Below, piece after piece: positions 5,886-63,103 of a DNA stretch of 64,000 bases (the stretch's first letter is position 1; the number at the start of each line of letters is the position of its first letter). The notes under the pieces were generated by a model, which saw only the letters and a list, made by a program, of their open reading frames with translations, was not told where the DNA came from and searched no databases. Location: positions 1 to 64,000 of the forward strand of contig NZ_JABXYX010000008.1 of assembly GCF_017982655.1 (NCBI RefSeq), read 5' to 3'. This DNA is from Brasilonema sp. CT11 (lineage in GTDB: Bacteria > Cyanobacteriota > Cyanobacteriia > Cyanobacteriales > Nostocaceae). The position numbers were made by a program, and so were the translations under genes.

Positions 5886-6201
5886 GTTACTTCTAAGGAT
5901 CAAATAAATTAATACCCATTGGAAAAATGATTGCGACAGATGGAACGCATTAAGCGATTACCAGTAACTCTTTCACAATTGGTAAATCTAAAATCTAAAA
6001 TCCAAAATGGTATAAGGTTTAACAACAAATAACTTACCAACTTAATTGTCAGAATTGAGAAGCCAAAATTTTGGGAAGCATCCCAATGCATGAAAAAAGA
6101 CGATTAGTTAAATTTTAACCAAAGCTAGCTAGAAGCCAGCTAATGGTGTTTCTTTGATTCGTTGCGGGTGGCGCGCCGTCTGGGGGCTGCTCCTAAACAA
6201 A
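5886..6201. other. Intergenic region between Rieske oxygenase and hydrolase
   Basis: 316 bases. Contains a short tandem motif (taaaatc) near 5985-6005 and a GC-rich stretch near 6165-6190. The 60-codon minus-strand frame here has no family features. The gap makes a shared transcript of the two flanking genes possible but not obvious. Confidence 0.5.
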
Positions 6202-7185
6202 TTACTTACGCTCAAAGGATTTTATCAGAGGATTAGTAGCATTTAGCAATTGCTCTAGTTGTTGAGAAGCTTCTGGTTGAAGACGAATATGAGTATCAAT
6301 AAATAACTCAATGATTTCAGCTATCAGTAGACGGAAGTTTTCTTGGGGTTGGGTAGCGGGGAAGTCAAGAAAGGGTCTACCTGTAGTAAAGTCTGAGGTA
6401 TCAGCCATCGAAAAGTGATTTGCCCCCTCTAGAAGTACCAGATAGCTGTCATTTCGTCCTCCAGCGATCGCTTCTTTGAATGTACGTATGACTGAGGTAG
6501 TAGCATCACCAGGATTTATACCATAGCGATAGCTACTATTAGCAATCACCCCATCACAGGTTCCTCCTATCAGCAGCAGTGGTAAGGAGTCTGGTAAAGG
6601 TAAAATAGTACCAGCCTCATAACCCAAATTCACCCCTCCAGCGCTATGTGCGCCATAAGCAAAAGCAGCAGTGACTTGAGAGAAAAAACGGCGATCAGCA
6701 TTTTCGATCGCAACTCTCCCACCAGCCGAGTGTCCGCCTAAAATAATTCGTTGCAAGTCAAGCGTCCCTGCTAAAATCCCTTTTGCCTGTAAGTCTTCCA
6801 GTTTCGCCAATAGTGCAGGCAAAGCCGCAGCCGTGGGAGCAGTACCATAAACTCCCCGCTTCCACTTCGCCAAATCAACCCCAGGAGTCAGCCCAATAAT
6901 CCCTGGGATACTTTCCGCAATCCAGTTAAAGAGGACTACCACCAGTCCACGTTCAGCTAGTTTAACCGCTAGCCATTGGTATTTTTGTGCTTCACAGTTA
7001 ACGCCGTTGAAGAAAATCACTACCGGAAAGGGAGCTTGTTCTGGATTGACAGGTACAATTCCCATATCTTTTTCTAAGTCATTTCCCGACATTTTTGCTG
7101 GGTAAAAAACTTTCAGATGAACTGTATCGTAAGGGGATTTAGCACTCTCAACATTGACAGCTTCAAAAAAAGCACGAACTATCAT
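6202..7185 (-). CDS. Chlorophyllase-like alpha/beta hydrolase
   Basis: 327 residues. The nucleophile elbow is GGHSAGGRVA (Ser153), with an oxyanion-hole strand FPVVIFFNGVN and a late histidine in EGANHFSMADTSDF. This layout fits the dienelactone hydrolase/chlorophyllase/PET-hydrolase-like superfamily. There is no signal peptide, so it is cytosolic. AGGAAG eight bases upstream supports the ATG at 7185. Chlorophyllases usually have GHSRGG, so GHSAGG makes the specific call uncertain. Its position upstream of a PAO-like enzyme on the same strand makes ester cleavage of a tetrapyrrole a testable idea. It could also be a general carboxylesterase. Confidence 0.75.
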   Translation of the reverse strand: MIVRAFFEAVNVESAKSPYDTVHLKVFYPAKMSGNDLEKDMGIVPVNPEQAPFPVVIFFNGVNCEAQKYQWLAVKLAERGLVVVLFNWIAESIPGIIGLTPGVDLAKWKRGVYGTAPTAAALPALLAKLEDLQAKGILAGTLDLQRIILGGHSAGGRVAIENADRRFFSQVTAAFAYGAHSAGGVNLGYEAGTILPLPDSLPLLLIGGTCDGVIANSSYRYGINPGDATTSVIRTFKEAIAGGRNDSYLVLLEGANHFSMADTSDFTTGRPFLDFPATQPQENFRLLIAEIIELFIDTHIRLQPEASQQLEQLLNATNPLIKSFERK

Positions 7186-20604: not shown

Positions 20605-23600
20605 TCATCCAGAAGAAATATCACCAAATGTAATATTTCCGGCAGTACCTATATTAAAGCCAACATTTCTATCACCAACAATCCCCACGCCATTATTAAC
20701 TTGATTGCTGATACTGCGAATGTTTTCTTGCGCTTCTGTTTTCACGTTATCCCATCCCTCTTGAGGTAAACCTTTACCTCCGCGTAACGATACGACAGGG
20801 AAATCTTCAGTTGCAAAGTCAAAAAATGGGGTTTGTTCGGCTTTACATAATTGTTGTGCGCTTTCGGGAACGGTTTTCCCTAAATAATTCATTAAATGGG
20901 AAACCCGCACGACTTTATCTCCTGGTTGGTTGGCTGCACCTTGCAATGCTTCGAGGAAATGGTATGTGTAGACGCTCATTTTGCCATCAGGACGAATATA
21001 AGATGATTGGTTTCCTGTGGAGGAGGTAAAAACAACTCTTCCTGTACCTTGTTTTAGTTCGTTGATGATATTTTTGGGTAAAGCTGTTTGAGTAAAACCT
21101 TTGGGTAGGGTAGAACGATTATTTTTCCCTGCATTATCCTTTGATGCTGCCATTCCTTGGGCATGACAACTATCAATAATTACCAGTAATTGTTTAGCAG
21201 GTATTTGTTGAAGTGCTGCGTTAAATTTTGCCGCAGATAAGGCAGTATTGGGAATATCTACACGGTCAGTTTCGTGAGGGATAAGATAGTAATCTCCAGA
21301 TTCATCCAAGCAACCATGACCGGAGTAATAAATAAATATAGTTGCTTCTGGGTCATTTTCTGCTTGTTGTTTTAGCCAGTTTAAACTATCTAAAATATTT
21401 TGAGTTGTTGCAGTTTCGTCATGGAGTAAACGTAGATGTTGATCATTATCAATATAGCCGCATAAATTCTGGTCAATGAGGAGACTTTTTAGGGTTTGAA
21501 TGTCTTTAACTGTGACGGGTAAGGATAATTTAGGTTCTTCGCATTCCCCAACGCCGATGAGTAAGGCGTAGTTGTGAGAGAGTGGGTTAGACATGGTACG
21601 TATTGGAGTTGGTTTGTAGCGTTTACAGTGTTGTTGAATAGTTTCTAGTGCTTGAATCGCTCCAGATAAATTATCCCCTTCATTCGCTGCAACAAAAGTC
21701 TCGATACTTAAAGATTGAATTAGCTGCGGCACAGCTTGTGATGAACCTATTTGTCCCAGCGCATATGCGGCACTCAAACGAACAGATGAATCTTGGTCTT
21801 CCAGAAGTTTAATTAACCCAGGAATTGCCTGTGATGAACCTATTTCTCCCAGCGCAGATGCGGCACTCAAACGAACAGATGAATCTTGGTCTTCCAGAAG
21901 TTTAATTAACCCAGGAATTGCGTGTGATGAATCTAGTTTTCCCAGCGCTTTTGCGGCACTCAAACGAATAGATGAATCTTGGTGTTCCAGAAGTTTAATT
22001 AACTCAGAAATTGCGTGTAATAAATCTAGTTTTCCCAGCGCTTTTGCGGCACTCAAACGAATAGATGAATCTTGGTGTTCCAGAAGTTTAATTAACTCAG
22101 ATATTGCGTGTGATGAATCTAGTTTTCCCAGCGCATATGCGGCAATTCTACGAACAAATGAATCTTGGTGTTCCAGAAGTTTAATTAACCCAGGGATTGC
22201 CTGTGATGAACCTATTTTTCCCAGCGCAGATGCGGCTATTCTACGAACCTCTGAATCTTGGTGTTCCAGAAGTTTAATTAACCCAGGTATTGCCTGTGAT
22301 GAACCTATTTTTCCCAGCGCATATGCGGCAGTCCTACGAACCTCTGAATTTTGGTCTTCCAGAAGTTTAATTAACCCAGGTATTGCCTGTGATGAATCTA
22401 TTTTTTCCAGCGTATATGCGGCAGTCCTACGAACAAATGAATTTCGGTCTTCCAGAAGTTTAATTAACCCAGGAATTGCCTGTGATGAACCTATTTCTCC
22501 CAGCGCAGATGCGGCAGTCCAACGAACAGATGAATCTTGGTATTCCAGAAGTTTAATTAACCCAGGAATTGCCTGTGATGAACCTATTTTTCCCAGCGCA
22601 TATGCGGAACTCCTACGAACCTCTGAATCTTGGTGTCCCAGAAGTTTAATTAACCCAGGAATTGCCTGTGATGAACCTATTTTTCCCAGCGCAGATGCGG
22701 CATTCCTACGAACAGATGAATCTTGGTGTCCCAGAAGTTTAATTAACCCAGGGATTGCCTGTGATGAACCTATTTCTCCCAGCGCAGATGCGGCTATTCT
22801 ACGAACCTCTGAATCTTGGTGTCCCAGAAGTTTAATTAACCCAGGGATTGCCTGTGATGAACCTATTTCTCCCAGCGCAGATGCGGCTATTCTACGAACC
22901 TCTGAATCTTGGTGTTCCAGAAGTTTAATTAACCCAGGGATTGCCTGTGATGAACCTATTTTTTCCAGCGCAGATGCGGCACTCCTACGAACAGATGAAT
23001 TTTGGTGTTCCAGAAGTTTAATTAACCCAGGGATTGCCTGTGATGAACCTATTTTTCTCAGCGCAGATGCGGCATCCCTACGAACCTCTGAATCTTGGTG
23101 TTCCAGAAGTTTAATTAACCCAGGGATTGCTGCCTCAGATTTAGTGATACCTAATAATCTAATTTCCAACAATCGCGGCAAACCTAAATGACTAATTAAC
23201 CCAACAGTTTTCTCCTGCCACTGTGATTTTACTGCCCCCGCTAACCTTGCCCCTAACTGCCAATCAACCTGTAGGGCTAACTTCACAACTCGCAACGCCA
23301 AAGCTTCATCTTCTACCAACTCTATCATCAGCACTACTGGTTCTGTCCATTTCAAATCATTCAAATAATCCCATTGCAACTCATCATCACTCAGATTTTT
23401 TACCTCTTGCAAAAATCTTTCTGCGGCGTAATACTCTTGAATAAGTTGATGGCGAAACTCGATTTTATTTTCTGCTCCTAATTGGATCAGGTGATGCTTG
23501 AGTAAATCATCTAACCAAGCGATCGCATTATCTGCGGCACAAGCAACTTTACCTTCGAGAAATTCCGTGAATATTTCTTCGGCTTGCTGTCGGGGTATAG

Positions 23601-24645
23601 CAACCAAAAATTCCGTCGATGTAGAGACGTTACATGTAACGTCTCTACAATCCGGGTTTCCTCCCATCATCACCCAAGCTAAATGCTGCAACAACCGCTT
23701 CCGCCAACGACGAGATTCTTGAGAAATCGGGACATCTTGCTTGAGTTGATCGTCATAAATTTCTGTGAAGCGGCGAAACACCGAACCTAAATTCGGCGGT
23801 AATTTATTCTGGTTGCTAGCAAACACCGAACACAGCATCATTAACAGCAGAGGTGTTTCGCCAAACTTCCGCAAGCGATCGCCTAACTGCTTCAACATTT
23901 GTTCTCCCACCTCTGGGAGATACCCCCGCACGAAATCTCGCATCTGGGTTTCCGTCAAAGGTTGCATTTCCAATTTTTTGCTGATTTCTAAATCACCACC
24001 CACCCCCAAATCCCGCGTTGTAAAAATCATCGGTGTGGTTTTGTGGAAATCTTGGCGAAATTTCTGTAAATTTCGTCTGGCTTCAGGTGACGGTAATTCG
24101 TTTACACCGTCGAGTAGCAGTAAAAATTGCCCTTGTCGCAATAATTCTTTGATCTTTTCGCCGCCATCGATGGGTAAACTGGGGTGATGGCGATGGAGAA
24201 AGTCTTTGATGAGATCAATAATTGAGGTTTGGTAGTAACGGAGTTCCACGAGGACGGGGATTTGGGTTTTCCCACCAGTTGTTGAGATTGCTACCGCTTG
24301 TTCTAACAACAAACGCTTCAAAGCAGTCGATTTTCCCGAACCTGGACGACCAATTAACAATACATGTTCTGATGCATATTTTCGCAAGCCTTCCAGAACA
24401 TTTAAAATTTCCCTTTTTTCGCTTGCTTCTGATAATAGTTCGTTCTCTGGTTTAACTGCTTCTGGTTTAACTGCTTCTGGTTTAATTGCTTCTGGTTTAA
24501 CTGCGATCGCCTGTAAATCTAACAATAGAGATTTTCTCACCTGGCTGTGATGCTTTTTACCCACAACATCTGTGAGAGTGTAAACTTCCCACAACTGATC
24601 GTAAGTAGCGCAAATTGATTGTAGATATGGCTTCCAGTCAACCAC
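20605..24645 (-). CDS. NACHT-type ATPase / HEAT-repeat / caspase-like fusion protein
   Basis: 1346 residues from a GTG start with AAGGAG six bases upstream. N-terminal part: helical, with an EAVKP tandem (about 48-67). NACHT STAND NTPase: Walker A GRPGSGKST (99-107), Walker B FLLLLDGVNEL (174-184). Residues about 500-975: fifteen PBS-lyase/HEAT repeats of 31 residues (SSQAIPGLIKLLEHQDS then VRRIAASALGKIG) plus a degenerate sixteenth. C-terminal peptidase C14 domain: His1110 in YYSGHG, Cys1160 in IIDSCHAQG, so the dyad is intact. The tail ends in GFNIGTAGNITFG, a motif seen in other cyanobacterial caspase/CHAT proteins. By family it senses a ligand with the repeats, oligomerises through NACHT and activates a protease, probably for defence or cell death. 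Target unknown. Confidence 0.9.
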   Translation of the reverse strand: MVDWKPYLQSICATYDQLWEVYTLTDVVGKKHHSQVRKSLLLDLQAIAVKPEAIKPEAVKPEAVKPENELLSEASEKREILNVLEGLRKYASEHVLLIGRPGSGKSTALKRLLLEQAVAISTTGGKTQIPVLVELRYYQTSIIDLIKDFLHRHHPSLPIDGGEKIKELLRQGQFLLLLDGVNELPSPEARRNLQKFRQDFHKTTPMIFTTRDLGVGGDLEISKKLEMQPLTETQMRDFVRGYLPEVGEQMLKQLGDRLRKFGETPLLLMMLCSVFASNQNKLPPNLGSVFRRFTEIYDDQLKQDVPISQESRRWRKRLLQHLAWVMMGGNPDCRDVTCNVSTSTEFLVAIPRQQAEEIFTEFLEGKVACAADNAIAWLDDLLKHHLIQLGAENKIEFRHQLIQEYYAAERFLQEVKNLSDDELQWDYLNDLKWTEPVVLMIELVEDEALALRVVKLALQVDWQLGARLAGAVKSQWQEKTVGLISHLGLPRLLEIRLLGITKSEAAIPGLIKLLEHQDSEVRRDAASALRKIGSSQAIPGLIKLLEHQNSSVRRSAASALEKIGSSQAIPGLIKLLEHQDSEVRRIAASALGEIGSSQAIPGLIKLLGHQDSEVRRIAASALGEIGSSQAIPGLIKLLGHQDSSVRRNAASALGKIGSSQAIPGLIKLLGHQDSEVRRSSAYALGKIGSSQAIPGLIKLLEYQDSSVRWTAASALGEIGSSQAIPGLIKLLEDRNSFVRRTAAYTLEKIDSSQAIPGLIKLLEDQNSEVRRTAAYALGKIGSSQAIPGLIKLLEHQDSEVRRIAASALGKIGSSQAIPGLIKLLEHQDSFVRRIAAYALGKLDSSHAISELIKLLEHQDSSIRLSAAKALGKLDLLHAISELIKLLEHQDSSIRLSAAKALGKLDSSHAIPGLIKLLEDQDSSVRLSAASALGEIGSSQAIPGLIKLLEDQDSSVRLSAAYALGQIGSSQAVPQLIQSLSIETFVAANEGDNLSGAIQALETIQQHCKRYKPTPIRTMSNPLSHNYALLIGVGECEEPKLSLPVTVKDIQTLKSLLIDQNLCGYIDNDQHLRLLHDETATTQNILDSLNWLKQQAENDPEATIFIYYSGHGCLDESGDYYLIPHETDRVDIPNTALSAAKFNAALQQIPAKQLLVIIDSCHAQGMAASKDNAGKNNRSTLPKGFTQTALPKNIINELKQGTGRVVFTSSTGNQSSYIRPDGKMSVYTYHFLEALQGAANQPGDKVVRVSHLMNYLGKTVPESAQQLCKAEQTPFFDFATEDFPVVSLRGGKGLPQEGWDNVKTEAQENIRSISNQVNNGVGIVGDRNVGFNIGTAGNITFGDISSG
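21720..23143 (-). repeat. Near-identical 93-base tandem repeats coding HEAT units
   Basis: About fifteen 93-base units, each with ccagaagtttaattaaccca and gcctgtgatgaacctat. They differ mainly at positions encoding repeat residues 13-23 (for example HQDSEVRR, YQDSSVRW, DRNSFVRR). High DNA identity, not only protein similarity, shows recent duplication or gene conversion. Confidence 0.92.
23621..23648. repeat. 28-base perfect palindrome inserted in frame in the caspase gene
   Basis: gtagagacgttaca followed by its exact reverse complement. It encodes residues about 333-342 (within CRDVTCNVST). A sister palindrome with gcatgc at the centre is intergenic at 35115-35142. Confidence 0.85.
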
Positions 24646-26611: not shown

Positions 26612-28927
26612 ATGGCGAATTCTGTTAGAGCATCTACACGGGGGCTAGAAATCGTCGAGCAAGCTAGGCTGAGAATGGGCTGGAATAAATACGCTGATAT
26701 TTGGTGGCAGACAGCATTAACTTCAAAAGCTACTTTGAGACGGTTTTGGGCAAGGGAGGCAATTCAGAGACAAACTTTTATACAAATTTGTGAGGCTGTA
26801 GGGGTGACAAGGTGGCAAGATATTATTGAGCACAGCCAAATTCCCATTACTGAACCTGATCCTGATTTTGTTGGGCGTGAGGAGGCGATTGCCCAACTCA
26901 ACGATATGGTTAACCAAAGCGCAAAGATTATTGTCATCCAAGGTGAGGGTGGCATAGGCAAAACAAGACTAGCTCGTAAATATTTTGAAAGTAAGGGTTT
27001 CAAATGTTTAGAACTGTTGATGGCAACGGAACCCCAAAACATCATTTCTCTAGAGTCTGTAGAGAGTGTAGTTGCGGAATGGTTATGGCGAGAGTTTGAT
27101 GAAGAACCAGGACGCAGTCTAGGGATCAATTTGCTGAGACTAAGACGGATACTTCGAGATGAAACCAGAAGAATCGGTATATTAATCGACAATCTCGAAA
27201 CTGCTTTAGATATCAATAGAACATTTATTGAGCCTCATCGCCATTATGTAGAATTATTGAGAGTTTTGGCAGATCCAGCAATGAATTCAGTCACACTGAT
27301 CACTAGCCGTGAACGCTTATGCGAAGCTAGTGTTGATGTGAACTTTTATATGCTCAGGGGTTTGGATGAGTCGGCATGGAGACAGTTTTTTGCTAGTAGC
27401 AAGATTAATCCTCATCCTGATTCTACAGCGCTGCGTGAAATATGCAGGGCATATGGAGGCAATGCTAAAGCAATGCGAATCATCAGCGGTGTCATTCGCG
27501 CAGATTTTGAATGTGATATAGATGCTTATTGGCATGTCACTCAAGATGATTTGTTGATTGAACAAGAGTTAAAAAATTTAGTTGTCAGTCAGTTTAATCG
27601 GCTGCAAGAAATTGATCCTGAAGCATATCGGCTTCTCTATCGTTTGGGATGCTACCGCTACCAAGATGTGCCTTTTGTAGCAATTGATGGGCTTCTTTGT
27701 TTACTGTGGGATGTGCCAGAGTCGCAACGTCGGCGGGTGGTTAATAGCTTGCGCGCTCGGTCTTTGGTAGAATGTGCTAAAGGAGAATACTGCTTACATC
27801 CAGTCATTTTGGCGGAAGCGATCGCTCGGTTGCGACTGAGTGGAGAATGGGAGAGAGCAAACCGCAAAGCTGCCGATTTTTGGACAAATAGTGTGAAGAC
27901 AGTTCAAGGTACAAAAGATGCATTAAAAGCCTTGGAAGCTTATTATCACTATGTCGTTATTGAAGACTTTGAACAAGCTGCGGATATCATCATTAAACAG
28001 AGAAAGAATAAATGGGGGACTCATGAATCTCTTGGACGATCATTTTATAAACGAGGTTTATTAATACCAATAACCGATGCAATAAACGAGATATTAGATA
28101 AACTTAATCGAGGATGCCGCAGTGCCAAACTTTATCACACATTAGGTGCTATATATTGGCTCAAAGGTGACATTCACCAAGCCATCCAGTATTGTGAGCA
28201 AGCAAGGGAGATAGCAAGCACCTGCTTACAATCCATGCCACAAGAAGAGGACAATGAGACAATTAAAAAACTTCAATTAATCAGAATCAACTCGTTATTA
28301 ACTATCGGAATTTGTCAAATTGGTTTTTGGGAACTCGAAGAAGCAGTGACAACTCTAAAGCGAGTCGTTGAACTTTGTGATGAACTTAACTATGAAAAAT
28401 ATGCTCCATCCGCTTTGTTTTACCTAGCATTTTTAAATTCATGGTTGGGACGAACAGAAGAAGCAATTGAGATTGCTAATTACCTTTACAATAGACTACC
28501 GCAAGAAGGACTACCTTCATGGGTAACAGAGTATAGATTGTTTTACTTATTAATAGCCTATAGAAATTTAGGAGAAATACAAAAATCATTTTACATCTAT
28601 CAAAAAAATATTTTTTATGCTGAAAACAGTCCTTATCCTCAAGCAAAAACTAAAGCTTTAATTGGTTTAGCACAGTTATATCGAGAACAAGGAGAATTTG
28701 AAAAAGCAGTAGCTTGTCATCAAGAAGGAATCAAAGTTTTAGATGAAATAGGCGCTAAATGGGACTTAGCAGAGGCTTACTATCAAATTGCATTAACTTA
28801 TCAAAAGATGGGTAAGCAGCCAAAGAGTGAGGAACACTTTGAGCGTGCGATCGCACTTTTCCAAGAAATGCAAGCACCCAAACAAGTTGATAAAGTACAA
28901 GCAGCAATGATTTTCATAAATAACTAA
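26612..28927 (+). CDS. STAND ATPase (NB-ARC-like) with N-terminal HTH-like domain and C-terminal TPRs
   Basis: 771 residues. Residues 1-75 form a compact helical domain found at the start of many cyanobacterial STAND proteins (GLEIVEQARLRMGW to GVTRWQDIIE), likely a death-fold or HTH-like adaptor. P-loop GEGGIGKT is at 111-118, Walker B GILIDNLE near 189-196, and a sensor ITSRE near 232. A winged-helix segment follows, then TPR-type helical pairs (about 500-760). By family it is a signal-regulated ATPase switch. There is no effector domain, so the output is unknown. Lone gene. Confidence 0.85.
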   Translation: MANSVRASTRGLEIVEQARLRMGWNKYADIWWQTALTSKATLRRFWAREAIQRQTFIQICEAVGVTRWQDIIEHSQIPITEPDPDFVGREEAIAQLNDMVNQSAKIIVIQGEGGIGKTRLARKYFESKGFKCLELLMATEPQNIISLESVESVVAEWLWREFDEEPGRSLGINLLRLRRILRDETRRIGILIDNLETALDINRTFIEPHRHYVELLRVLADPAMNSVTLITSRERLCEASVDVNFYMLRGLDESAWRQFFASSKINPHPDSTALREICRAYGGNAKAMRIISGVIRADFECDIDAYWHVTQDDLLIEQELKNLVVSQFNRLQEIDPEAYRLLYRLGCYRYQDVPFVAIDGLLCLLWDVPESQRRRVVNSLRARSLVECAKGEYCLHPVILAEAIARLRLSGEWERANRKAADFWTNSVKTVQGTKDALKALEAYYHYVVIEDFEQAADIIIKQRKNKWGTHESLGRSFYKRGLLIPITDAINEILDKLNRGCRSAKLYHTLGAIYWLKGDIHQAIQYCEQAREIASTCLQSMPQEEDNETIKKLQLIRINSLLTIGICQIGFWELEEAVTTLKRVVELCDELNYEKYAPSALFYLAFLNSWLGRTEEAIEIANYLYNRLPQEGLPSWVTEYRLFYLLIAYRNLGEIQKSFYIYQKNIFYAENSPYPQAKTKALIGLAQLYREQGEFEKAVACHQEGIKVLDEIGAKWDLAEAYYQIALTYQKMGKQPKSEEHFERAIALFQEMQAPKQVDKVQAAMIFINN

Positions 28928-55229: not shown

Positions 55230-56606
55230 ATGAAACTACCAAATGGACCGCAAACTCCAGGGCTGGTACAAATGCTCCAGTGGGTTTTCAGCCCCATGTC
55301 ATTTATGGAAGCTTGTACTAAACGCTACGGGGATATCTTCACATTGCAGCTAAATCGTCCGGTGGTTTTTGTCAGCAATCCTGCGGCGATGCAGCAGATG
55401 TTGACGAGCGACACAAAGCAGTTTGAGGCTCCTAGTGACTGGAACACTCCTTTTGAACCTATGCTTGGCAAGAATTCTGTCATCACTCTTAGTGGTAAGG
55501 CACACCAGCGTCAACGACAGTTAATGATGCCTTCGTTTCATGGTGACAGAATGCGAACCTACGGTCAGGTTATTGGCGATATTACAGAGGAAATTAGCAG
55601 CCAGTGGCAGATAGACAAACCCTTCTGCGCACGGTCTGCAATGCAAGCTATCACCTTGCGGGTGATGATGCAAGCCGTGTTTGGCTTATATGAAGGTTCA
55701 CGCGCCCAAGAATTGGAGGAAGTTTTAAGTCTGATGATGGATGAAGGAGGACAATCTCCTGCAAGAGCGCTCATCCTTTATTTTCCAGCCCTACAACGGG
55801 ATTTAGGTTCACTCACGCCTTGGGGAAAGTTCTTGCGCCGCCGGGAACGAGTTAACCAAATGCTGTACGCGGAAATTCGCGAACGGCGAGAGCAACCAGA
55901 CTCATCGCGGACAGATGTCCTCAGCTTGCTGATGGCGGCGAAGGATGAAGCAAACCAGCCAATGACTGATGAGGAATTACGTGATGAGTTAATGACTTTG
56001 TTAGTAGCAGGTCACGAAACTACAGCCACAGCGTTAACCTGGGCATTGTACTGGATTCACAAACTGCCAGGAGTACGAGAAAAACTTCTAGAGGAACTTG
56101 ATACTTTGGGCGATCGCCCAGACCCCAGCACCATTTTCAAATTACCCTATTTAAATGCTGTGTGCTGTGAAACCTTGCGGATTTATCCAGTGGCGATGCT
56201 TACCTTTCCACGAGTGGTGAGAACACCCGTATCGTTGTCTGGACAGGAACTTGAACCAGGTACAGTTGTCATGGGCTCAATTTATCTGACTCATCAGCGT
56301 GAGGATTTATATCCCCAACCCAAACAGTTTAACCCAGAACGTTTTCTGGAAAGGCAATTTTCCGCTTATGAGTATTTGCCGTTTGGTGGTGGTGTCAGGC
56401 GTTGCATAGGTATGGCATTTGCCCAGTTTGAAATGAAAGTTGTGCTTGCTACCATCCTGTCGCGCTGGGAATTGGCGCTGGTTGATGAGGGTGATGTGGG
56501 ATCAAAACGCCGTGGTTTGGTTTCAGGTCCCAACCGTTCTATCCAAATGGTTGTTAAAGGTCAGCGATTGGTTAAGTCTAAAATTTTGGAATCTATCGCT
56601 GGTTAA
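55230..56606 (+). CDS. Cytochrome P450, CYP110-like
   Basis: 458 residues, soluble. Substrate/oxygen helix AGHETTATALTW, ExxR (CCETLRIYP), and haem loop FGGGVRRCIG with axial Cys392. N-terminus KLPNGPQTPGLVQMLQWVF is typical of the cyanobacterial CYP110 group, which hydroxylates fatty acids or terpenoids. No redox partner nearby. It is upstream of a second P450 on the same strand, 305 bases away. Confidence 0.92.
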   Translation: MKLPNGPQTPGLVQMLQWVFSPMSFMEACTKRYGDIFTLQLNRPVVFVSNPAAMQQMLTSDTKQFEAPSDWNTPFEPMLGKNSVITLSGKAHQRQRQLMMPSFHGDRMRTYGQVIGDITEEISSQWQIDKPFCARSAMQAITLRVMMQAVFGLYEGSRAQELEEVLSLMMDEGGQSPARALILYFPALQRDLGSLTPWGKFLRRRERVNQMLYAEIRERREQPDSSRTDVLSLLMAAKDEANQPMTDEELRDELMTLLVAGHETTATALTWALYWIHKLPGVREKLLEELDTLGDRPDPSTIFKLPYLNAVCCETLRIYPVAMLTFPRVVRTPVSLSGQELEPGTVVMGSIYLTHQREDLYPQPKQFNPERFLERQFSAYEYLPFGGGVRRCIGMAFAQFEMKVVLATILSRWELALVDEGDVGSKRRGLVSGPNRSIQMVVKGQRLVKSKILESIAG

Positions 56607-56812
56607 GTTTTTAAGGAACAATATTTTGATATAGTTTTCTACGCAGAATAACTGAGTAGTTGTAGGTAAGGCATATGCCTTACCTACAAATTTTGAGTGA
56701 GAAATTTGAAGAAAACGAACCGCCCAGGACACCAAGTTAAAACAATAAAGAAATATCTGAAGTTCTATAAAATCCCTATTTGATTTTTGAACGGAACTCA
56801 GTAAAGTTTATG

Positions 56813-56872
56813 TTCTCTGTTCCCTGTTCCCTGTTCCCTGTTCCCTGTTCCCTGTTCCCTGTTCCCTACCTC
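56813..56872 (+). repeat. gttccct heptamer array invading the second P450 5' end
   Basis: About seven tandem copies of the 7-mer ttccctg. It is in frame with the P450 and would encode VPCSLFP units if translation began at 56810. The same heptamer appears singly at 13640, 49435 and 63270. Confidence 0.88.
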
Positions 56873-56911
56873 AACGAGTTCGTTCGTAAACCATACCGGA
56901 TTCCTATATAT

Positions 56912-58258
56912 ATGATTGGTTCTTTGAAACAAACACTGCAATTAATTATTAATCCAACGAGGTTTTTAGAAGATTGTGCGGCTAAGTATGGTGACACGTT
57001 CACGGTTCGAGTATTAGGGATAAATTCGCCGCCAGTGGTGTTTTTTGGTAGTCCGGAAGCGATCGCTGAGTGTTTTGCTGTGCCTGCTAAAGATTTGGAT
57101 TTTAAGAAGGCAACTCATGTTTTTGAGCCTTTGTTTGGGGAGAATTCGATTGTTTTGCAAGAGGGGCGATCGCACAATCGCCAACGCCAATTATTGATGC
57201 CACCCTTTCATGGCGATCGTATGAAAACTTACGGTCAAGTCATTTGCCAAATCACTGAAAATATTATTCAAAATTGGACACAAGGCAAATCTATTTCTGT
57301 ACAGCATGTTATGCCAGATATTACTTTACAAATAATTTTACAAGTAGTATTTGGGATCAGTCCCGGTGTCCGTTATGAAAAATTAAAACAACTGCTGAGT
57401 TCTTTATTAGAAGATGTAACGAAACCTTTATATTCTACCTTCTTTTTCTTTCCACCACTACAAAAAGATTTAGGTGCATGGAGTCCTTGGGGAAATTTCC
57501 AAAAACGTCGCGAGGAAATTGACAAACTGATTTATGCAGAGATTTCTGAACGACGTTTATCTAACGATGCTTCACGTACAGATATTCTCAGTCTGCTGAT
57601 GTCAGCGCGTGACGAAAATGGACAGCAAATGACAGATAAAGAGTTACGTGATCAATTAGTTTCACTGTTGCTTTTAGGATATGAAACGACAGCTGCTGTC
57701 TTAGCTTGGCTATTTTATTTAATTCACTTCCACCCACAAGTAAAAGATAAGCTGATGCAGGAATTGAGGACTTCAGGCGATACACTTAATCCCGAAACTA
57801 TCACTCAATTACCATACCTGAGTGCTGTCTGTTCGGAAACACTCCGACTTCACCCCATTGCTCTTATTTGTACGCCACGAATGGTAAAAGACAAAGTAGA
57901 AATTGCTGGTCAAAAATTGACATCTGGGACAGTTTTAGTTCCCAGTATTTATTTAGCTCATCGACGCGCAGAAACTTACCCAGAACCAGAAAAATTTCAA
58001 CCAGAAAGATTTCTCAATCAAAAATTTTCACCTTATGAATATTTACCCTTTGGAGGAGGTTATCGCGGTTGTATAGGTGCAGCATTTTCTATGTATGAAA
58101 TGAAATTAGTTACAGCAACTATTTTGTCACGTTTTCAGCTAGAGCTTACTGATAAGCATCCAGTGCGTCCAGTACGTCGCGGAATTACGATTGTTCCCTC
58201 TGGTGGTGTACAAATGGTTGTTACTAACCAGATAAATAAAGCGAAAGTTTTTATATAA
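56912..58258 (+). CDS. Cytochrome P450, second CYP110-like paralogue
   Basis: About 448 residues from the ATG at 56912; a longer form starting at ATG 56810 would begin with heptamer-encoded sequence. Helix motif LGYETTAAVLAW, ExxR in CSETLRLHP, haem loop FGGGYRGCIG with axial Cys387. The usual Pro-rich N-terminus (KLPxGPxxP) is absent; the frame here reads KPYRIPIYMIGSLKQTLQL after the repeat, so the true start may have been destroyed or shifted. The protein core is intact. Confidence 0.88.
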   Translation: MIGSLKQTLQLIINPTRFLEDCAAKYGDTFTVRVLGINSPPVVFFGSPEAIAECFAVPAKDLDFKKATHVFEPLFGENSIVLQEGRSHNRQRQLLMPPFHGDRMKTYGQVICQITENIIQNWTQGKSISVQHVMPDITLQIILQVVFGISPGVRYEKLKQLLSSLLEDVTKPLYSTFFFFPPLQKDLGAWSPWGNFQKRREEIDKLIYAEISERRLSNDASRTDILSLLMSARDENGQQMTDKELRDQLVSLLLLGYETTAAVLAWLFYLIHFHPQVKDKLMQELRTSGDTLNPETITQLPYLSAVCSETLRLHPIALICTPRMVKDKVEIAGQKLTSGTVLVPSIYLAHRRAETYPEPEKFQPERFLNQKFSPYEYLPFGGGYRGCIGAAFSMYEMKLVTATILSRFQLELTDKHPVRPVRRGITIVPSGGVQMVVTNQINKAKVFI

Positions 58259-58667
58259 GAATCCAGTTTAAAGTAGGTAGGCGTAATTAATTCGTAGATA
58301 GCAGTAGTGCGAGCGTCTCGCTCGCGGGCAAGATGCCCGCACTACATTTTATATTTAATTAAACCCACTTACTAATTTGGTGAACTAACTCATAGAGGCA
58401 CTTAACAAAGATGGAGTAGGCAGCTATTCTATAAATAGCTTTGTTGAAAAGTAAGAGCAAAACAAAGAAATCACCGGGACAGATGAGTTTACCTTGGGAC
58501 AAGCAAAGAGTGACAGAATGTACTGAGGTTACGGAGGTAGCGGAAAAATTTATTCAAGCCAATGGCTATCATCTGCCTGTGCCAGGTATCCGATTCATGG
58601 AATGCTGATGACTTCGTGGTTTGGGGTGCTGTAATAAATCTTTATAAAATTCGGAAACACTTAGATG
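58259..58667. other. Spacer with nested hairpins and a short frame
   Basis: 58304-58345 is a dispersed repeat with an outer gtagtgc/gcactac stem and inner gcgagc/gctcgc and gcgggca/tgcccgc stems. A 41-codon frame at 58483-58608 (see separate entry) lies in the right part. Confidence 0.6.
58483..58608 (+). CDS. Possible 41-residue protein or gene fragment
   Basis: ATG frame encoding LPWDKQRVTECTEVTEVAEK then FIQANGYHLPVPGIRF. Composition is protein-like, but there is no ribosome binding site, and it may be the remnant of a longer gene. No family recognised. Confidence 0.25.
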   Translation: MSLPWDKQRVTECTEVTEVAEKFIQANGYHLPVPGIRFMEC

Positions 58668-61232
58668 TTACAGTTTACAAGTCGCAACGCGAGAAAAGAA
58701 GACCTCTACACCCCCGCGACCCGTCATCCAACTACTCCAACCCACTATTCTATCTGCATCTCTCATTATTTGATCACGCTTGGTAACCAATGGTAGCGAC
58801 CCTTTATACATCTTGGGGTTACTTTTTATACCCTTAATCACTTCTTCATCACTTCGTAAGTTACTTGTTATGTACGTAACTCTTGAGTCTCTTGTTTCAT
58901 TCTTGCTTGCCTTGTAATCATACCACCCAACTGCCTTAGCAAACCGTAAATAGTTTGTAACATTAAAGTCATTCGGGTCCATACGCAGTCGATTTTCAGT
59001 CCGTATCCATATTTCCTTTTGTACACCAAAGCCAAAACGTTTGTCTGAATTGAACCAAAGTTTGTCTATTCTTTGTAGGTCTGGACAAGAAAAACTCTTA
59101 ATACTGTCATCATCAAAATTTTCCTTTTTAGCTATGTTGAGCATGAGTTGGAGTGTTTGTCTATCAGCTTCAGCCCAGTTTTTAGCATTCAAAAAATATT
59201 TAAGTTGAGCATATAAATGTTCGGTAAGAGATCGTTCAACATCTTTTCTCAAATCTGATTCTGTATTATTTTTAGAGAGGACTTCAATTAAATCTAGATG
59301 AACAGAAGTGATATTTCCGTATGTAATGAACTGATTATCTTTGGTAAAGTCAGTTTCCTTTGGATGTTTATTTAAAATATTAAATGCTGTCTTGTAAGCT
59401 TTAATAGCTTGCTCATTTTTATTTGTTTGAGCTAAAAAACTGCCTTGAATTTTGTAGAACAATACTTGAATCTGTCGTAAGTCAGCTTCTTTCGCTTTTT
59501 TATCGGCTTCTGCTATGTGTAAATTTGTCTCGCTTTTCTCAATTTTCTCTTTTGCTTCTTTCGGTTTTTTCAACTGTTGATATGCTTGGGATTGAGCAGC
59601 AAATACTAGTGCTTGTTTTAAGGAATAATTATCAATGTTAAAAGATAAGGCAGATAGCCTTAGAGCTTCGTTGTAATATGAATTCGAGGAATTCTGATTT
59701 TCTAATTCTCCGGCTAGTTTATTTAATTGCTTAACAGCTTTAACTTCTTCCAAAGTTTCATTGAGTTGCTTTTTCGACAATAGCCCTACAGTTGCTGCTC
59801 CTAAAATTGCTACAATTACAACAACAACTCCAATACTAATTCGTCGTTGAGCTTTCTTATTAGCTTCCCTAAGCATTTTATTTCTTGACTCTGCTGCTTC
59901 TTTGTCTTTCCTTTCTCTCTCCAAAGCAGCTTTTTGTTCTGACGCAGCGATTTTCTCTTGAATTTCTTTCTCTTGGCTAGCAGCTAAATACTGTTTATCT
60001 TGATAACTTAAATTTTTCTCTTTCGCCCATTCAAGAGCTTCTTGTAATGCCTTGCCCCGCAATAATCGTGATTCATCAGTTCCTCCAGAATCTACCCAAC
60101 CACGGAAATTCTCTGAATATGGACGCAGGTTATTTAACTGAGTTTCAATCCAATTAAGGTCAAATATTTGTTGATAAATGCGGTTATAAACTTTTAACTT
60201 TTCCTGTCTTTTAACAACTAATCCCGATAACTGCAATTCATTGACTTCAATACTATTATTGCTAGCTATTTCTCCTTTTTTTCGAATTTGTTGATACAAT
60301 TCCAGCAGATAACTAGCGCGTTGCCCATGTGAAAGAATCCGATCTCGTATGGTTCGCAAGTGTTCTGGATCATCCTGAGATTCCCAGTTTTCAATAATCC
60401 TCGATGTTACTACTTCCCCAACTGAACGACGATTATCCTTAAAAGACTCCTCAACCATAAACTTACACAACTTTTGAGTCAGAAATGGTTGTCCACCTGT
60501 CCAATCTAAGATTGACTCCATGACTTGTTCGGGATTTGATACTATGCCTTGCAATCCGTTGATCAGCGGTTGGACTTCATCAATACGAAAACCATGCAGT
60601 TCAATTCCTTCTCCAATATTAAAAGGGGTTTGGGTTTTATCAGTTATCAAATCGCTGGGAGTCGCCACCCCCAACAAAGCAAACGTCAACCGCTCAAATA
60701 TCGGATTATCAACTCGTTGATTTTGAAAGAACCGAATCAGAGCAAAAAAATCATCCAGAGAAAAATCTTGACTCAGTACCCTGTCAATTTCATCGACAAA
60801 AATGACTATCGGTTGCTGAATTTTTTCCAGTAAGACTTCTTCGATAAACAATCTCAAGCACGTGACTGGATCTAGTATTGATTGTTTTTTTTGCCACCAT
60901 GTCTGCCAATCAAAATCAAATTTATCTTCCAACTGGCAACTTTCTACCAAACCGTAAACAATGCCCCCATACCACTGTGATAGTGTTACCTTGTGCTTAC
61001 CAATCCCTGTCAAATCTATCGCCGCACAGACAGTCCCTTCTGATTGCAACCGTTGCATCGTCTGCACCCGCAAGCTAGACTTACCCATCTGCCGGGAATT
61101 CAGCACGTAACAAAATTTCCCGGCTCGTAATTTTTGGTAAAACTCCTCGTCCGCTTCTCGGTGCACATAGCTCTTAGCATCAACCGGAAGACTTGCACCT
61201 AGTTGATAGAAGTTGGAACTGCTGGCTACCAC
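58668..61232 (-). CDS. STAND-like ATPase with transmembrane helix and C-terminal GUN4 domain
   Basis: 854 residues from a GTG start. AAA-like ATPase (about 15-330): P-loop NSRQMGKSSL, Walker B PIVIFVDEIDRVL, and LLGVATPSDLI. A helical winged segment is followed by a charged coiled coil (about 415-465), one membrane helix (about 466-490, ISIGVVVVIVAILGAATVGLL), and a TPR-like helical region. The GUN4 domain is at about 670-854: LKYFLNAKNWAEADRQTLQL, CPDLQRIDKLWFNSDKRFGF, GVQKEIW, NYLRFAKAVGW and a FFSRVATCKL end. GUN4 binds porphyrins. It is downstream of the CHAT gene; the CHAT stop TAA lies within its AAGGAG, so translation is coupled. Confidence 0.88.
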   Translation of the reverse strand: MVASSSNFYQLGASLPVDAKSYVHREADEEFYQKLRAGKFCYVLNSRQMGKSSLRVQTMQRLQSEGTVCAAIDLTGIGKHKVTLSQWYGGIVYGLVESCQLEDKFDFDWQTWWQKKQSILDPVTCLRLFIEEVLLEKIQQPIVIFVDEIDRVLSQDFSLDDFFALIRFFQNQRVDNPIFERLTFALLGVATPSDLITDKTQTPFNIGEGIELHGFRIDEVQPLINGLQGIVSNPEQVMESILDWTGGQPFLTQKLCKFMVEESFKDNRRSVGEVVTSRIIENWESQDDPEHLRTIRDRILSHGQRASYLLELYQQIRKKGEIASNNSIEVNELQLSGLVVKRQEKLKVYNRIYQQIFDLNWIETQLNNLRPYSENFRGWVDSGGTDESRLLRGKALQEALEWAKEKNLSYQDKQYLAASQEKEIQEKIAASEQKAALERERKDKEAAESRNKMLREANKKAQRRISIGVVVVIVAILGAATVGLLSKKQLNETLEEVKAVKQLNKLAGELENQNSSNSYYNEALRLSALSFNIDNYSLKQALVFAAQSQAYQQLKKPKEAKEKIEKSETNLHIAEADKKAKEADLRQIQVLFYKIQGSFLAQTNKNEQAIKAYKTAFNILNKHPKETDFTKDNQFITYGNITSVHLDLIEVLSKNNTESDLRKDVERSLTEHLYAQLKYFLNAKNWAEADRQTLQLMLNIAKKENFDDDSIKSFSCPDLQRIDKLWFNSDKRFGFGVQKEIWIRTENRLRMDPNDFNVTNYLRFAKAVGWYDYKASKNETRDSRVTYITSNLRSDEEVIKGIKSNPKMYKGSLPLVTKRDQIMRDADRIVGWSSWMTGRGGVEVFFSRVATCKL

Positions 61233-61245
61233 TTTTCAAAACTCC

Positions 61246-62919
61246 TTACAAGACGCGGCGGAAATACTCACGGTAAAGTTGGCAACGGGGTGTAACATAA
61301 TTATTATGTTTTTGTACCAACCCCAAACTGTGTAATTTATAGATAAGCATTGGATCTAATTCTACTTCTACATTTGAATTAACGACTCGTTTAAAACTTG
61401 TTTGCAGTTCTGGTACTGTTTGTAAAACTCCCAATAGAGATCGTAAGTGATTATTATAAATCCCTGCTTCTGTTGTCGCCGATTGTAATAAATTTTTGAG
61501 AGCGACTTTCCCCATTGCAATTTCATACATCGCCAACCGCAACAGGTAGGGGTGTCCTCCTACCATTGTCCCTAATTCTTCTAAAACAGCATCCGCATCT
61601 TGTATTCCGTGTTTTCTTATCAATTCTCTAGTCTGTTGTTGATTAAACTCTTCAAGTTCTACAGGTAATCCAGCATTAAAAGGAGATTGATGGACATCTA
61701 AAGGAATGTAAACTTCCGTCGAATGCGCTAGAACTAAATGTAGTTTTTTCCAAATATCAGAAGTTTTCCCTTTCTCATGCCAAGAACGTAACAATCCTAA
61801 AAAATCTTCCACCACTTCACTATAAGTAAATAATCTATCTACTTCATCTAAACCTAAAACTACATGTTGATTAATTTTAGCTAAAATATACTTCTTAAAA
61901 TAAGCTGTACAATTATCGTTGCTACCGAGAATGTTCAGATTCCATACTTCGGAAACCTTATTTTCCAGGTTTAGCTCATCACTAACCCTGACACAAAACC
62001 AACGTAAAAAGTTATCAAGATTTGTTAATATTGCTTTGTCTATACTACCCAAGTCTAAATAAACTGATTGCGCATTCTGTTGAGCAGCGTCAGCCATAAG
62101 CCTAGTCAATAAAGAAGTTTTCCCCATCAGTTTTGGCGCTTTAATCCGAATTAGGGAACCAGGCTTCAAGAGTGTTTCGTAAACAGACTTAATGCCATCT
62201 TGTTCTATATAAAAAGGTGAGATAAGTGGCACAGAGCCATCGGGATATTCTAATTCCATAACTGGAGAAGAGTTATATATATTATTTCCGTCAGTTGCTC
62301 GTTCAATATGTATACTTGTCGCTGGTTCCGGTTTTGGATTCTCAATCCATTCAAGTTTTCTTTTCAAGACTGGTATCTGCCCCTGTGAAACATCTTCCAT
62401 TTGAATGGCAACCAATCCTTCTTCAAAAGCCCTCTGAATAATATCAAGACTATCTGGATTTTCGTACCCTAGTCCATCATAAAATCCAATAGCAAATACA
62501 ATCGCTGCTTTGTCACCAATCGGCTGATTCATGCCGATTGTATAATTAATATGTTGGCTAATAGCCACTGCCGATTTTTCGGAATAACAGGCGTTAAGTA
62601 ACACACACTTAACATGATTGGCGTGTAGCTTAAATAATGCTGCTAATGCGAATGCTGAAACAGCTTTATGATTTCCCGAGTCATCTTCTAATGCTAAGCT
62701 GCCATCCTCCATTCCATGTCCACAAAAATGCACAATTTGAGGAAGTTCTTCTGCTAAAGCCCGACGAATATCTTGGGGGCGTACAGCAGTTCTAATTTTA
62801 ATTTCCCACTTATCTCTTTTGACTCCCCGTCTAATAGCTTCAACTATATCCCGAATTTCTTTATCCAAACGTAATCCCTCTGGGATTGCTGTCAAAATTA
62901 ATACTTTATCCAAAGACAT
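61246..62919 (-). CDS. CHAT protease-like domain fused to a STAND-like ATPase
   Basis: 557 residues. CHAT (caspase HetF-associated with TPRs) domain at about 1-185: catalytic His68 in IVHFCGHGMEDGSL and Cys111 in CVLLNACYSEKSA, both present. ATPase part (about 235-557): P-loop APKLMGKTSLL (near 261-271), Walker B VVLGLDEVDRLF (353-364), and a winged-helix-like end. Family reading: an ATPase-controlled protease that cuts an unknown partner on signal. GGGGAG nine bases before the ATG. It overlaps the upstream small gene by 14 bases and is coupled to the GUN4 gene. Confidence 0.9.
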   Translation of the reverse strand: MSLDKVLILTAIPEGLRLDKEIRDIVEAIRRGVKRDKWEIKIRTAVRPQDIRRALAEELPQIVHFCGHGMEDGSLALEDDSGNHKAVSAFALAALFKLHANHVKCVLLNACYSEKSAVAISQHINYTIGMNQPIGDKAAIVFAIGFYDGLGYENPDSLDIIQRAFEEGLVAIQMEDVSQGQIPVLKRKLEWIENPKPEPATSIHIERATDGNNIYNSSPVMELEYPDGSVPLISPFYIEQDGIKSVYETLLKPGSLIRIKAPKLMGKTSLLTRLMADAAQQNAQSVYLDLGSIDKAILTNLDNFLRWFCVRVSDELNLENKVSEVWNLNILGSNDNCTAYFKKYILAKINQHVVLGLDEVDRLFTYSEVVEDFLGLLRSWHEKGKTSDIWKKLHLVLAHSTEVYIPLDVHQSPFNAGLPVELEEFNQQQTRELIRKHGIQDADAVLEELGTMVGGHPYLLRLAMYEIAMGKVALKNLLQSATTEAGIYNNHLRSLLGVLQTVPELQTSFKRVVNSNVEVELDPMLIYKLHSLGLVQKHNNYVTPRCQLYREYFRRVL

Positions 62920-63103
62920 TACTGCTCGCTCCCCAATTGTTAGTGGAGGGGGTAACTAGATTAGGCTGATTGGATAGGGAATCTTCGTTTTGTTTTAGCA
63001 ATTGCTCAATTAGCTCAGTTATCACTTTACTCAAAATGATTCCACAAATAGCACAGGCTGCGTGAAATATCTTTTTTATATTGTTGGCGATACTAGTATG
63101 CAT
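62906..63103 (-). CDS. Small hydrophobic protein upstream of the CHAT gene
   Basis: 65 residues. An amphipathic to hydrophobic N-terminus (IKKIFHAACAICGIILSKVI) precedes an acidic/polar tail (LLKQNEDSLSNQPNLVTPST). Its stop overlaps the CHAT start by 14 bases, the usual sign of a translated upstream gene. No family recognised. It could be the membrane partner or the protease substrate of CHAT. Confidence 0.5.
   Translation of the reverse strand: MHTSIANNIKKIFHAACAICGIILSKVITELIEQLLKQNEDSLSNQPNLVTPSTNNWGASSNVFG

Follow-up and report, generated by a model that had tools for sequence, protein, structure and literature searches.

Hypervariable 3' ends of GUN4 genes in putative conflict receptors of cyanobacteria, including a GUN4-CHAT ATPase pair of Brasilonema sp. 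CT11

What does a GUN4 domain recognise when it forms the end of an ATPase that is encoded directly behind a CHAT protein? This question is raised by a locus in a stretch of 64,000 nucleotides from Brasilonema sp. CT11, here called the window, which an earlier note had read as a sensor of free tetrapyrrole or of the light/oxidative state wired to a protease. The locus consists of three minus-strand genes, namely S (62906..63103, 65 amino acids), A (61246..62919, 557 amino acids) and B (58668..61232, 854 amino acids). The open reading frames confirmed the close packing that had been described, since S and A overlap by 14 bp and A lies upstream of B with a gap of 13 bp. The stop codon of A was likewise found where it had been placed, inside the ribosome binding site of the GUN4 gene, with its TAA abutting the GGAG of B.

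Gene A encodes a putative effector ATPase in which both a CHAT and an AAA_35 domain exceed the Pfam cut-offs. The part of CHAT matched by Pfam covers residues 18-119 (62563..62868, minus strand; 33.6 bits, cut-off 24), and a full AAA_35 domain, designated type A, covers residues 225-554 (61258..62247, minus strand; 452 bits). The His68/Cys111 dyad reported earlier as intact is indeed present, with H68 within HFCGHG and C111 within NACYS, and such a dyad was retained in 35 of the 37 CHAT homologues examined; judged by this dyad, A is a CHAT protease and may act by proteolysis. In the closest homologue of A (locus L101), the ATPase is 90% identical and the N-terminal part is EAD1-CHAT. When A was compared with a paralogue (L054), the CHAT domains were 83% identical and the ATPases 42%, and therefore CHAT and ATPase of A appear to have partly separate histories.

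Gene B encodes a candidate receptor, in which the AAA_35 and GUN4 domains also exceed the Pfam cut-offs. Its AAA_35 domain, of type B (residues 14-357; 60162..61193, minus strand; 120 bits), contains the P-loop LNSRQMGKSS and the Walker B motif VIFVDEID. Because the P-loop is without its first glycine (LNSRQ[MS]GKSS) in nearly all members, ATP turnover by B is uncertain. Of the membrane-anchored ATPase proposed for B, the ATPase part is upheld by Pfam, and the anchor corresponds to a single hydrophobic segment, a probable transmembrane helix recognised by eye (residues about 465-487; 59772..59840, minus strand), which is followed by a helical region and then by GUN4. The GUN4 domain said to end this protein was recovered: Pfam (PF05419) matched its core at residues 670-774 (58911..59225, minus strand) with 72.7 bits against a cut-off of 29.2, GUN4 chains were the best matches in a sequence search of the PDB (2e-7), and the AlphaFold model of residues 561-854 (pLDDT 76, pTM 0.77) had as its top two structure matches the GUN4 entries 1y6i and 4xkb, with a probability of 1.0 and weak E values (0.014 and 0.025). 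A match of the domain to the PADLOC model PD-T4-6 was rejected as antiphage evidence, because this model, one among many PD-T4-6 models, merely represents a kinase-GUN4 cluster.

The two ATPases belong to a larger set of paired systems. The genome of this strain has 43 AAA_35 matches, which are either strong (type A, 370-510 bits) or weak (type B, about 95-125 bits), and genes of the two types mostly adjoin each other, forming about 15 pairs. Modules are exchanged on both genes: CHAT, CHAT-TIR, Ser/Thr kinase, trypsin and HTH-like modules are found at the N terminus of type A, and WD40, CHASE2, PBP (periplasmic-binding-protein-like) and GUN4 modules at the C terminus of type B, one copy of which has a GAF domain N-terminal to the ATPase. 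The modules of B are of the ligand-binding or repeat kind and those recognised on A are of effector type, which puts GUN4 in the place of the sensor and CHAT in that of the effector.

When 99 genomes were searched, including that of this strain, 42 GUN4 matches stood clearly above the remainder. A type-A gene was located upstream on the same strand in 35 of these 42 GUN4-B loci, no more than 25 bp away in 23, and in seven there was no A neighbour upstream. CHAT was present on A, or on the gene just before A, in 32 of the 35 paired loci, compared with only 4 of 17 in a control of 20 B genes with other sensors (17 of which had an A gene nearby), which demonstrates a preference of CHAT for GUN4 within the pairs. 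The earlier note would have been refuted by the lack of a GUN4 match or by separation of the two genes in nearly all relatives; such a match exists, and the genes are not found apart. As GUN4 stands at the position of the sensor domains of paralogous B proteins, the note's sensor wired to a protease has good support as an architecture. Related loci were also found on four plasmid records (Nostoc sp. HK-01, Nostoc sp. C057 twice, and Tolypothrix), and thus the module is also plasmid-borne.

The small protein S, which had been described merely as hydrophobic, has to be reinterpreted. It has six relatives, of which five are encoded directly upstream of a paired CHAT gene (L109, L117, L127, L129 and L130) and the sixth upstream of another CHAT gene (L101); their consensus is MHISIADDLKKRFHAACALRGRKMSQVVTELIEQWL. 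Two of the three homologues tested passed the Pfam cut-off for ParG (26.4 and 28.3 bits, cut-off 21.4), and other ribbon-helix-helix models ranked behind ParG. The copy in the window, with 15.7 bits, is below the cut-off and looks degenerate. Most likely, S is a small DNA-binding autoregulator of the ribbon-helix-helix type.

The most unusual feature of the locus, which had been missed previously, lies at the 3' end of the GUN4 gene, where a hypervariable stretch is followed by a conserved element. From just after the GxLP motif of GUN4 to this element, the sequence is unrelated from gene to gene, whereas both flanks are constant. The variable region (VR) is 29-193 bp long across loci and 96 bp long in the window, where it lies between GSLP and the element (58695..58790, minus strand) and contains the codons for the final approximately 30 amino acids of B. 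In 34 of 37 gene pairs, not all of them independent, whose preceding 300 bp were at least 84% identical, the identity within the VR was at the level of shuffled sequences, and the lengths differed. For instance, two Microcystis loci (L175 and L190) are 95% identical in the core and 98% identical in the element plus 95 bp, and their VRs, of 76 and 44 bp, are unrelated. The borders of the VR are sharp on both sides in many pairs. These comparisons draw on genome collections that contain one genome per species. In three of the 37 close pairs the VR was common to both members, and therefore it is heritable and its renewal is not constant. Altogether, there is little doubt that the 3' end of these GUN4 genes is hypervariable.

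In 85 of 87 loci the VR has no stop in the frame of GUN4, against 35 ± 4 for dinucleotide shuffles. Altogether this frame contains 2 stops in 2135 codons, and the two remaining frames contain 104 and 107. Openness was not a criterion in choosing the loci, which were located by motif and are thus biased towards well-kept elements. Because the VR is kept free of stops, the tail that it encodes is not ignored by selection. Its composition, unlike that of the core, hardly differs between the first, second and third codon position (G.35/.31/.32; A.21/.20/.19), and G greatly exceeds C, with G runs of at least 5 in 32 of the 87 loci and C runs in none. In these respects the VR looks like random G-rich DNA that has been filtered for the absence of stops. 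A search of this genome with eight of its VRs, and one with the VR of the window, detected no second copy, and no template or donor was found. Duplications templated by the flanks (9-mers or longer) were in slight excess (14% versus 7%), and this excess is too small for flank duplication to be the mechanism.

The conserved element became apparent from the ends of the proteins. The C termini of 33 aligned GUN4 ends are of three kinds, FSRVATCKL, LFSRCDL and SFLALRFVNCNI, and all three result from a single DNA sequence, TTCTTTTCTCGCGTTGCGACTTGTAAACTGTAACATCTAA, translated in its different frames. With stops in all three frames, this element terminates translation whichever frame enters, and it is read in the three frames in 40, 23 and 24 loci, respectively. 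Its core is located in the window at 58665..58694, and the remainder of the conserved region, about 200 bp as judged by alignment of 83 loci, at 58460..58664, both on the minus strand. We found 31 copies in 14 relatives, compared with none for a reversed-pattern control; 27 copies were directly behind a GUN4 match, two were at contig ends, one followed a degenerate GUN4 and one followed a TIR gene. Among 292 genomes spread over the phylum, the element was present in 38, which belong to the window's own order or to a small number of further families in its class; lineages with small genomes (about 2 Mb) yielded none. The element is also missing from the housekeeping gun4 of this strain.

At the edge of the VR, the element begins with 16 bp that form a small hairpin (stem of at least 4) in 91 of 122 loci. 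A hairpin was found in 24 of 44 distinct versions of the element, which are related by descent, compared with 2.6 expected from shuffles. Only this edge hairpin stands out, as the DNA fold of the whole element was no better than that of shuffles (z of -0.5 and -0.2), and a search of Rfam gave no credible family. Conservation owing to a gene on the opposite strand was rejected for the element, which lies outside the Y1 transposase ORF described below, and it is partly true further downstream, where the C terminus of Y1 is encoded. Among 57 additional GUN4 proteins that have the element, the modules included protein kinase (22), NACHT (14), TIR (9) and caspase (3); the hypervariable GUN4 end is thus linked, in general, to proteins of the conflict and cell-death type.

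The presence of the VR bears directly on the ligand. In Synechocystis GUN4, the motif GHLP is located at 205-208, with W192 before it and N211 and R214 after it; these residues have a role in porphyrin binding. In the window and its relatives, the pocket segment NQLRG, containing N211 and R214, is replaced by the VR, and the surroundings of W192 are not conserved in B either, whereas the strain's housekeeping gun4 has retained the segment after GxLP. This replacement lowers the likelihood that B is a mere tetrapyrrole sensor and raises that of a variable surface for recognition. B thus shares with Synechocystis GUN4 (1y6i, 4xkb) the core fold, and differs from it in that the last segment is a hypervariable tail and in being fused to an ATPase and a transmembrane segment. 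It could still be argued that the GUN4 domain binds free porphyrin and thereby licenses the CHAT protease, the tail being an unimportant appendix, since the profile and fold matches are to GUN4, the domain occupies the sensor position of a modular pair, and Kaur et al. 2020 (PMC7159879) already propose tetrapyrrole sensing for GUN4 in conflict systems. However, a pocket segment that is random-looking here and kept in the housekeeping protein, together with a tail that is under selection, renders this quite unlikely, and the tetrapyrrole, light or oxidative stimulus of the earlier note is weakened accordingly. GUN4 and EAD domains are listed for conflict systems by Kaur et al. 2020 and 2021 (PMC8195603), and the parts of these two papers that were consulted contain no mention of variable GUN4 ends or AAA_35 pairs.

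How the tails could be renewed is the second part of the question. The sole candidate enzyme seen is a Y1 (HUH, RAYT-like) transposase, the gene or remnant of which is found behind the element in 39 of 122 loci (0 of 122 in an upstream control), always in an orientation convergent to the GUN4 gene and with a stop codon that in most cases lies about 90 bp away from the element. The window contains only a remnant, the C-terminal 56 codons (58438..58605, plus strand), with 70% identity to residues 201-256 of an intact protein; many other copies are decayed as well, and no intact transposase of the element-linked family was found in the window's genome. Intact relatives match Y1_Tnp with 69.6 bits (cut-off 23) and have the HUH motif SNHVHYL. 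They resemble RAYT in belonging to the Y1 HUH family and in lying beside a small hairpin element, and differ in remaining below the cut-off of the NCBIfam RAYT model (NF047646; 71.9 bits, cut-off 80) and in always being convergent to GUN4 genes. HUH enzymes recognise small hairpins, and a nick at the border between element and VR is therefore an attractive idea. Against it stand the result for the window's own genome and the two thirds of loci in which no Y1 is seen.

Whether renewal is programmed and proceeds without a template can be answered only tentatively, and we place the likelihood slightly below even. The tails might instead be by-products of a Y1 transposon that, itself or by its end, repeatedly lands at or leaves GUN4 3' ends and makes new junctions, the open frames being those of the survivors. 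The regular position and orientation of Y1, its many decayed copies and the hairpin at the junction would be explained in this way. Less easily explained would be the near confinement of the element to GUN4 genes, since all but four of its copies lie directly behind GUN4 and two of these four are at contig ends; tails of such different lengths that are nearly all stop-free; borders that are sharp on both sides in many pairs; and tails in lineages without a visible Y1. On balance, such an origin is unlikely. A diversity-generating retroelement (DGR), in which a mutagenic reverse transcriptase rewrites the VR from a template repeat, would account for the position of the VR at the 3' end of a gene and before a conserved site with a hairpin, and other conflict proteins of cyanobacteria are diversified by DGRs. 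The likeness to DGRs acting on FGS/C-type-lectin domains of such proteins extends to the kinase, NACHT, TIR and caspase modules to which the hypervariable domain is joined. The fold here, however, is GUN4; length and frame of the VR vary; the variation is not restricted to A positions of a common template; no template repeat was found for the eight VRs; and a crude motif scan detected a reverse-transcriptase-like motif in 1 of 118 loci and none in the window. These results contradict a DGR, which has next to no probability. Gene conversion between GUN4 paralogues, or from silent cassettes, could draw on the several paralogues in each genome, which share their flanks, and on CHAT domains that look exchanged between paralogues, as judged from their identity relative to that of the neighbouring ATPases. 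It is nevertheless very unlikely, as a second copy was found for none of the eight VRs in an assembly that is 96% complete.

In our own reading, random G-rich DNA of free length would enter the gene at the junction of the GUN4 core with a frame-tolerant element, with a nick at the element hairpin, by an HUH enzyme or otherwise, as the probable start. The result would be tails reminiscent of antigen receptors on conflict proteins of the NLR, kinase, TIR and caspase types, with the GUN4-CHAT pair of the window as one example of a receptor and its executioner. We advance this as a possibility whose chances fall a little short of even. For the pair itself, we lean, by a small degree, towards a functional model consisting of receptor B with its variable GUN4 tail, the paired ATPase A with its CHAT protease, and the regulator S. 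In this model, the probable ribbon-helix-helix protein S would keep the operon off. The GUN4 domain with its tail would meet a ligand, which may be a component of an invader or an altered component of the cell, and the variable end of B would decide what is recognised. B, anchored in the membrane by its probable transmembrane helix, would then change its nucleotide state through AAA_35 and engage the cognate A, which would assemble, so that the CHAT cysteine protease could cleave its target and thereby cause dormancy or death of the cell. The ligand, the contact between A and B, proteolysis, cell death and repression by S are what we infer from domains and gene order.

The operon can be placed among known systems. 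With the modular NTP-dependent conflict systems (Kaur et al. 2020, 2021) it shares swappable effectors and sensors, modules such as TIR, kinase, trypsin and caspase, the EAD1 on the closest homologue, and an occurrence in multicellular cyanobacteria; it differs in that its core is a pair of AAA_35 ATPases and that there is no MoxR-vWA. It also recalls the sensor-executor logic of STAND proteins (NLR, the APAF-1 apoptosome) in its NTPase switch, in the WD40 sensors of sister pairs and in the output by a caspase-fold protease, and differs in having sensor and protease on two paired ATPases; this is a likeness of logic, which does not imply membership of the AAA_35 family in STAND. The main novelty lies in the hypervariation rather than in the operon. 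A literature search of sources other than subscription journals found no paper on hypervariable GUN4, on the PF14516 (AAA_35) pair core or on a link between RAYT and GUN4. GUN4 and hypervariability were mentioned together only in Kaur et al. 2020 and in a DGR survey, in other contexts.

The best reading of these proteins is that they are conflict receptors with a diversified recognition tail. The known sources of targeted protein hypervariation in bacteria are DGRs, silent-cassette recombination and slippage. If the variation described here is programmed, it would represent a new route to receptor diversity, one that in appearance resembles junctional diversity more than it resembles DGRs. A smaller novelty beside it is the paired AAA_35 system, as a two-ATPase scheme of receptor and effector with exchangeable ends. 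The variation of the tails is located in NACHT, kinase, TIR, caspase and CHAT-pair proteins, that is, in those that run bacterial immunity and cell suicide, and the expansions of GUN4 in cyanobacteria, which have so far been read as photosynthesis sensors, would thereby gain a different purpose.

Two distinct suicide-type effectors are borne by one ATPase in the CHAT-TIR-AAA_35 proteins of the window's own genome, G000 (L060, contig C22:118000-123347, and L061, contig C129:1-6500), and their partner, of type B (the kind that generally bears the sensor), is divergent. A trypsin-AAA_35 gene (L059:1977-3899), with WD40 on its B partner, is preceded by a gene for a 115-aa protein, which by eye is similar to the trypsin-co-occurring (Trypco) small proteins. 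The conjugative plasmid p057_H of Nostoc sp. C057 (L365) carries an AAA_35 pair that matches the window's, and there CHAT and the GUN4 gene stand separate, adjoining the pair.

A GUN4-B paralogue in the window's genome (L056:4347-5945 and 5949-6836) is interrupted by a single in-frame TGA between the TM region and GUN4, and a single open frame at L102:2509-5733 spans CHAT-A and GUN4-B, which looks like a deletion fusion of these two genes. The 3' element, the conserved DNA behind the hypervariable end of GUN4 genes, is tandemly duplicated at L364 (G348:C1:1168992-1169072), with 51 bp from the first copy to the second.

Immediately past the remnant of the convergent Y1 transposase, the window contains two adjoining genes named by eye as cytochrome P450-like (55230-56606 and 56780-58258, both on the plus strand). 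Elsewhere in the window, an AAA_16-TPR protein of 771 aa (26612-28927, plus strand) is STAND/AP-ATPase-like, and its gene lies 2 kb from that of a 1346-aa NACHT-HEAT repeat-caspase protein (20605-24645, minus strand). The latter, whose HEAT repeats are numerous and nearly identical to each other, is a further protein of the conflict/cell-death type in addition to the GUN4-CHAT pair.
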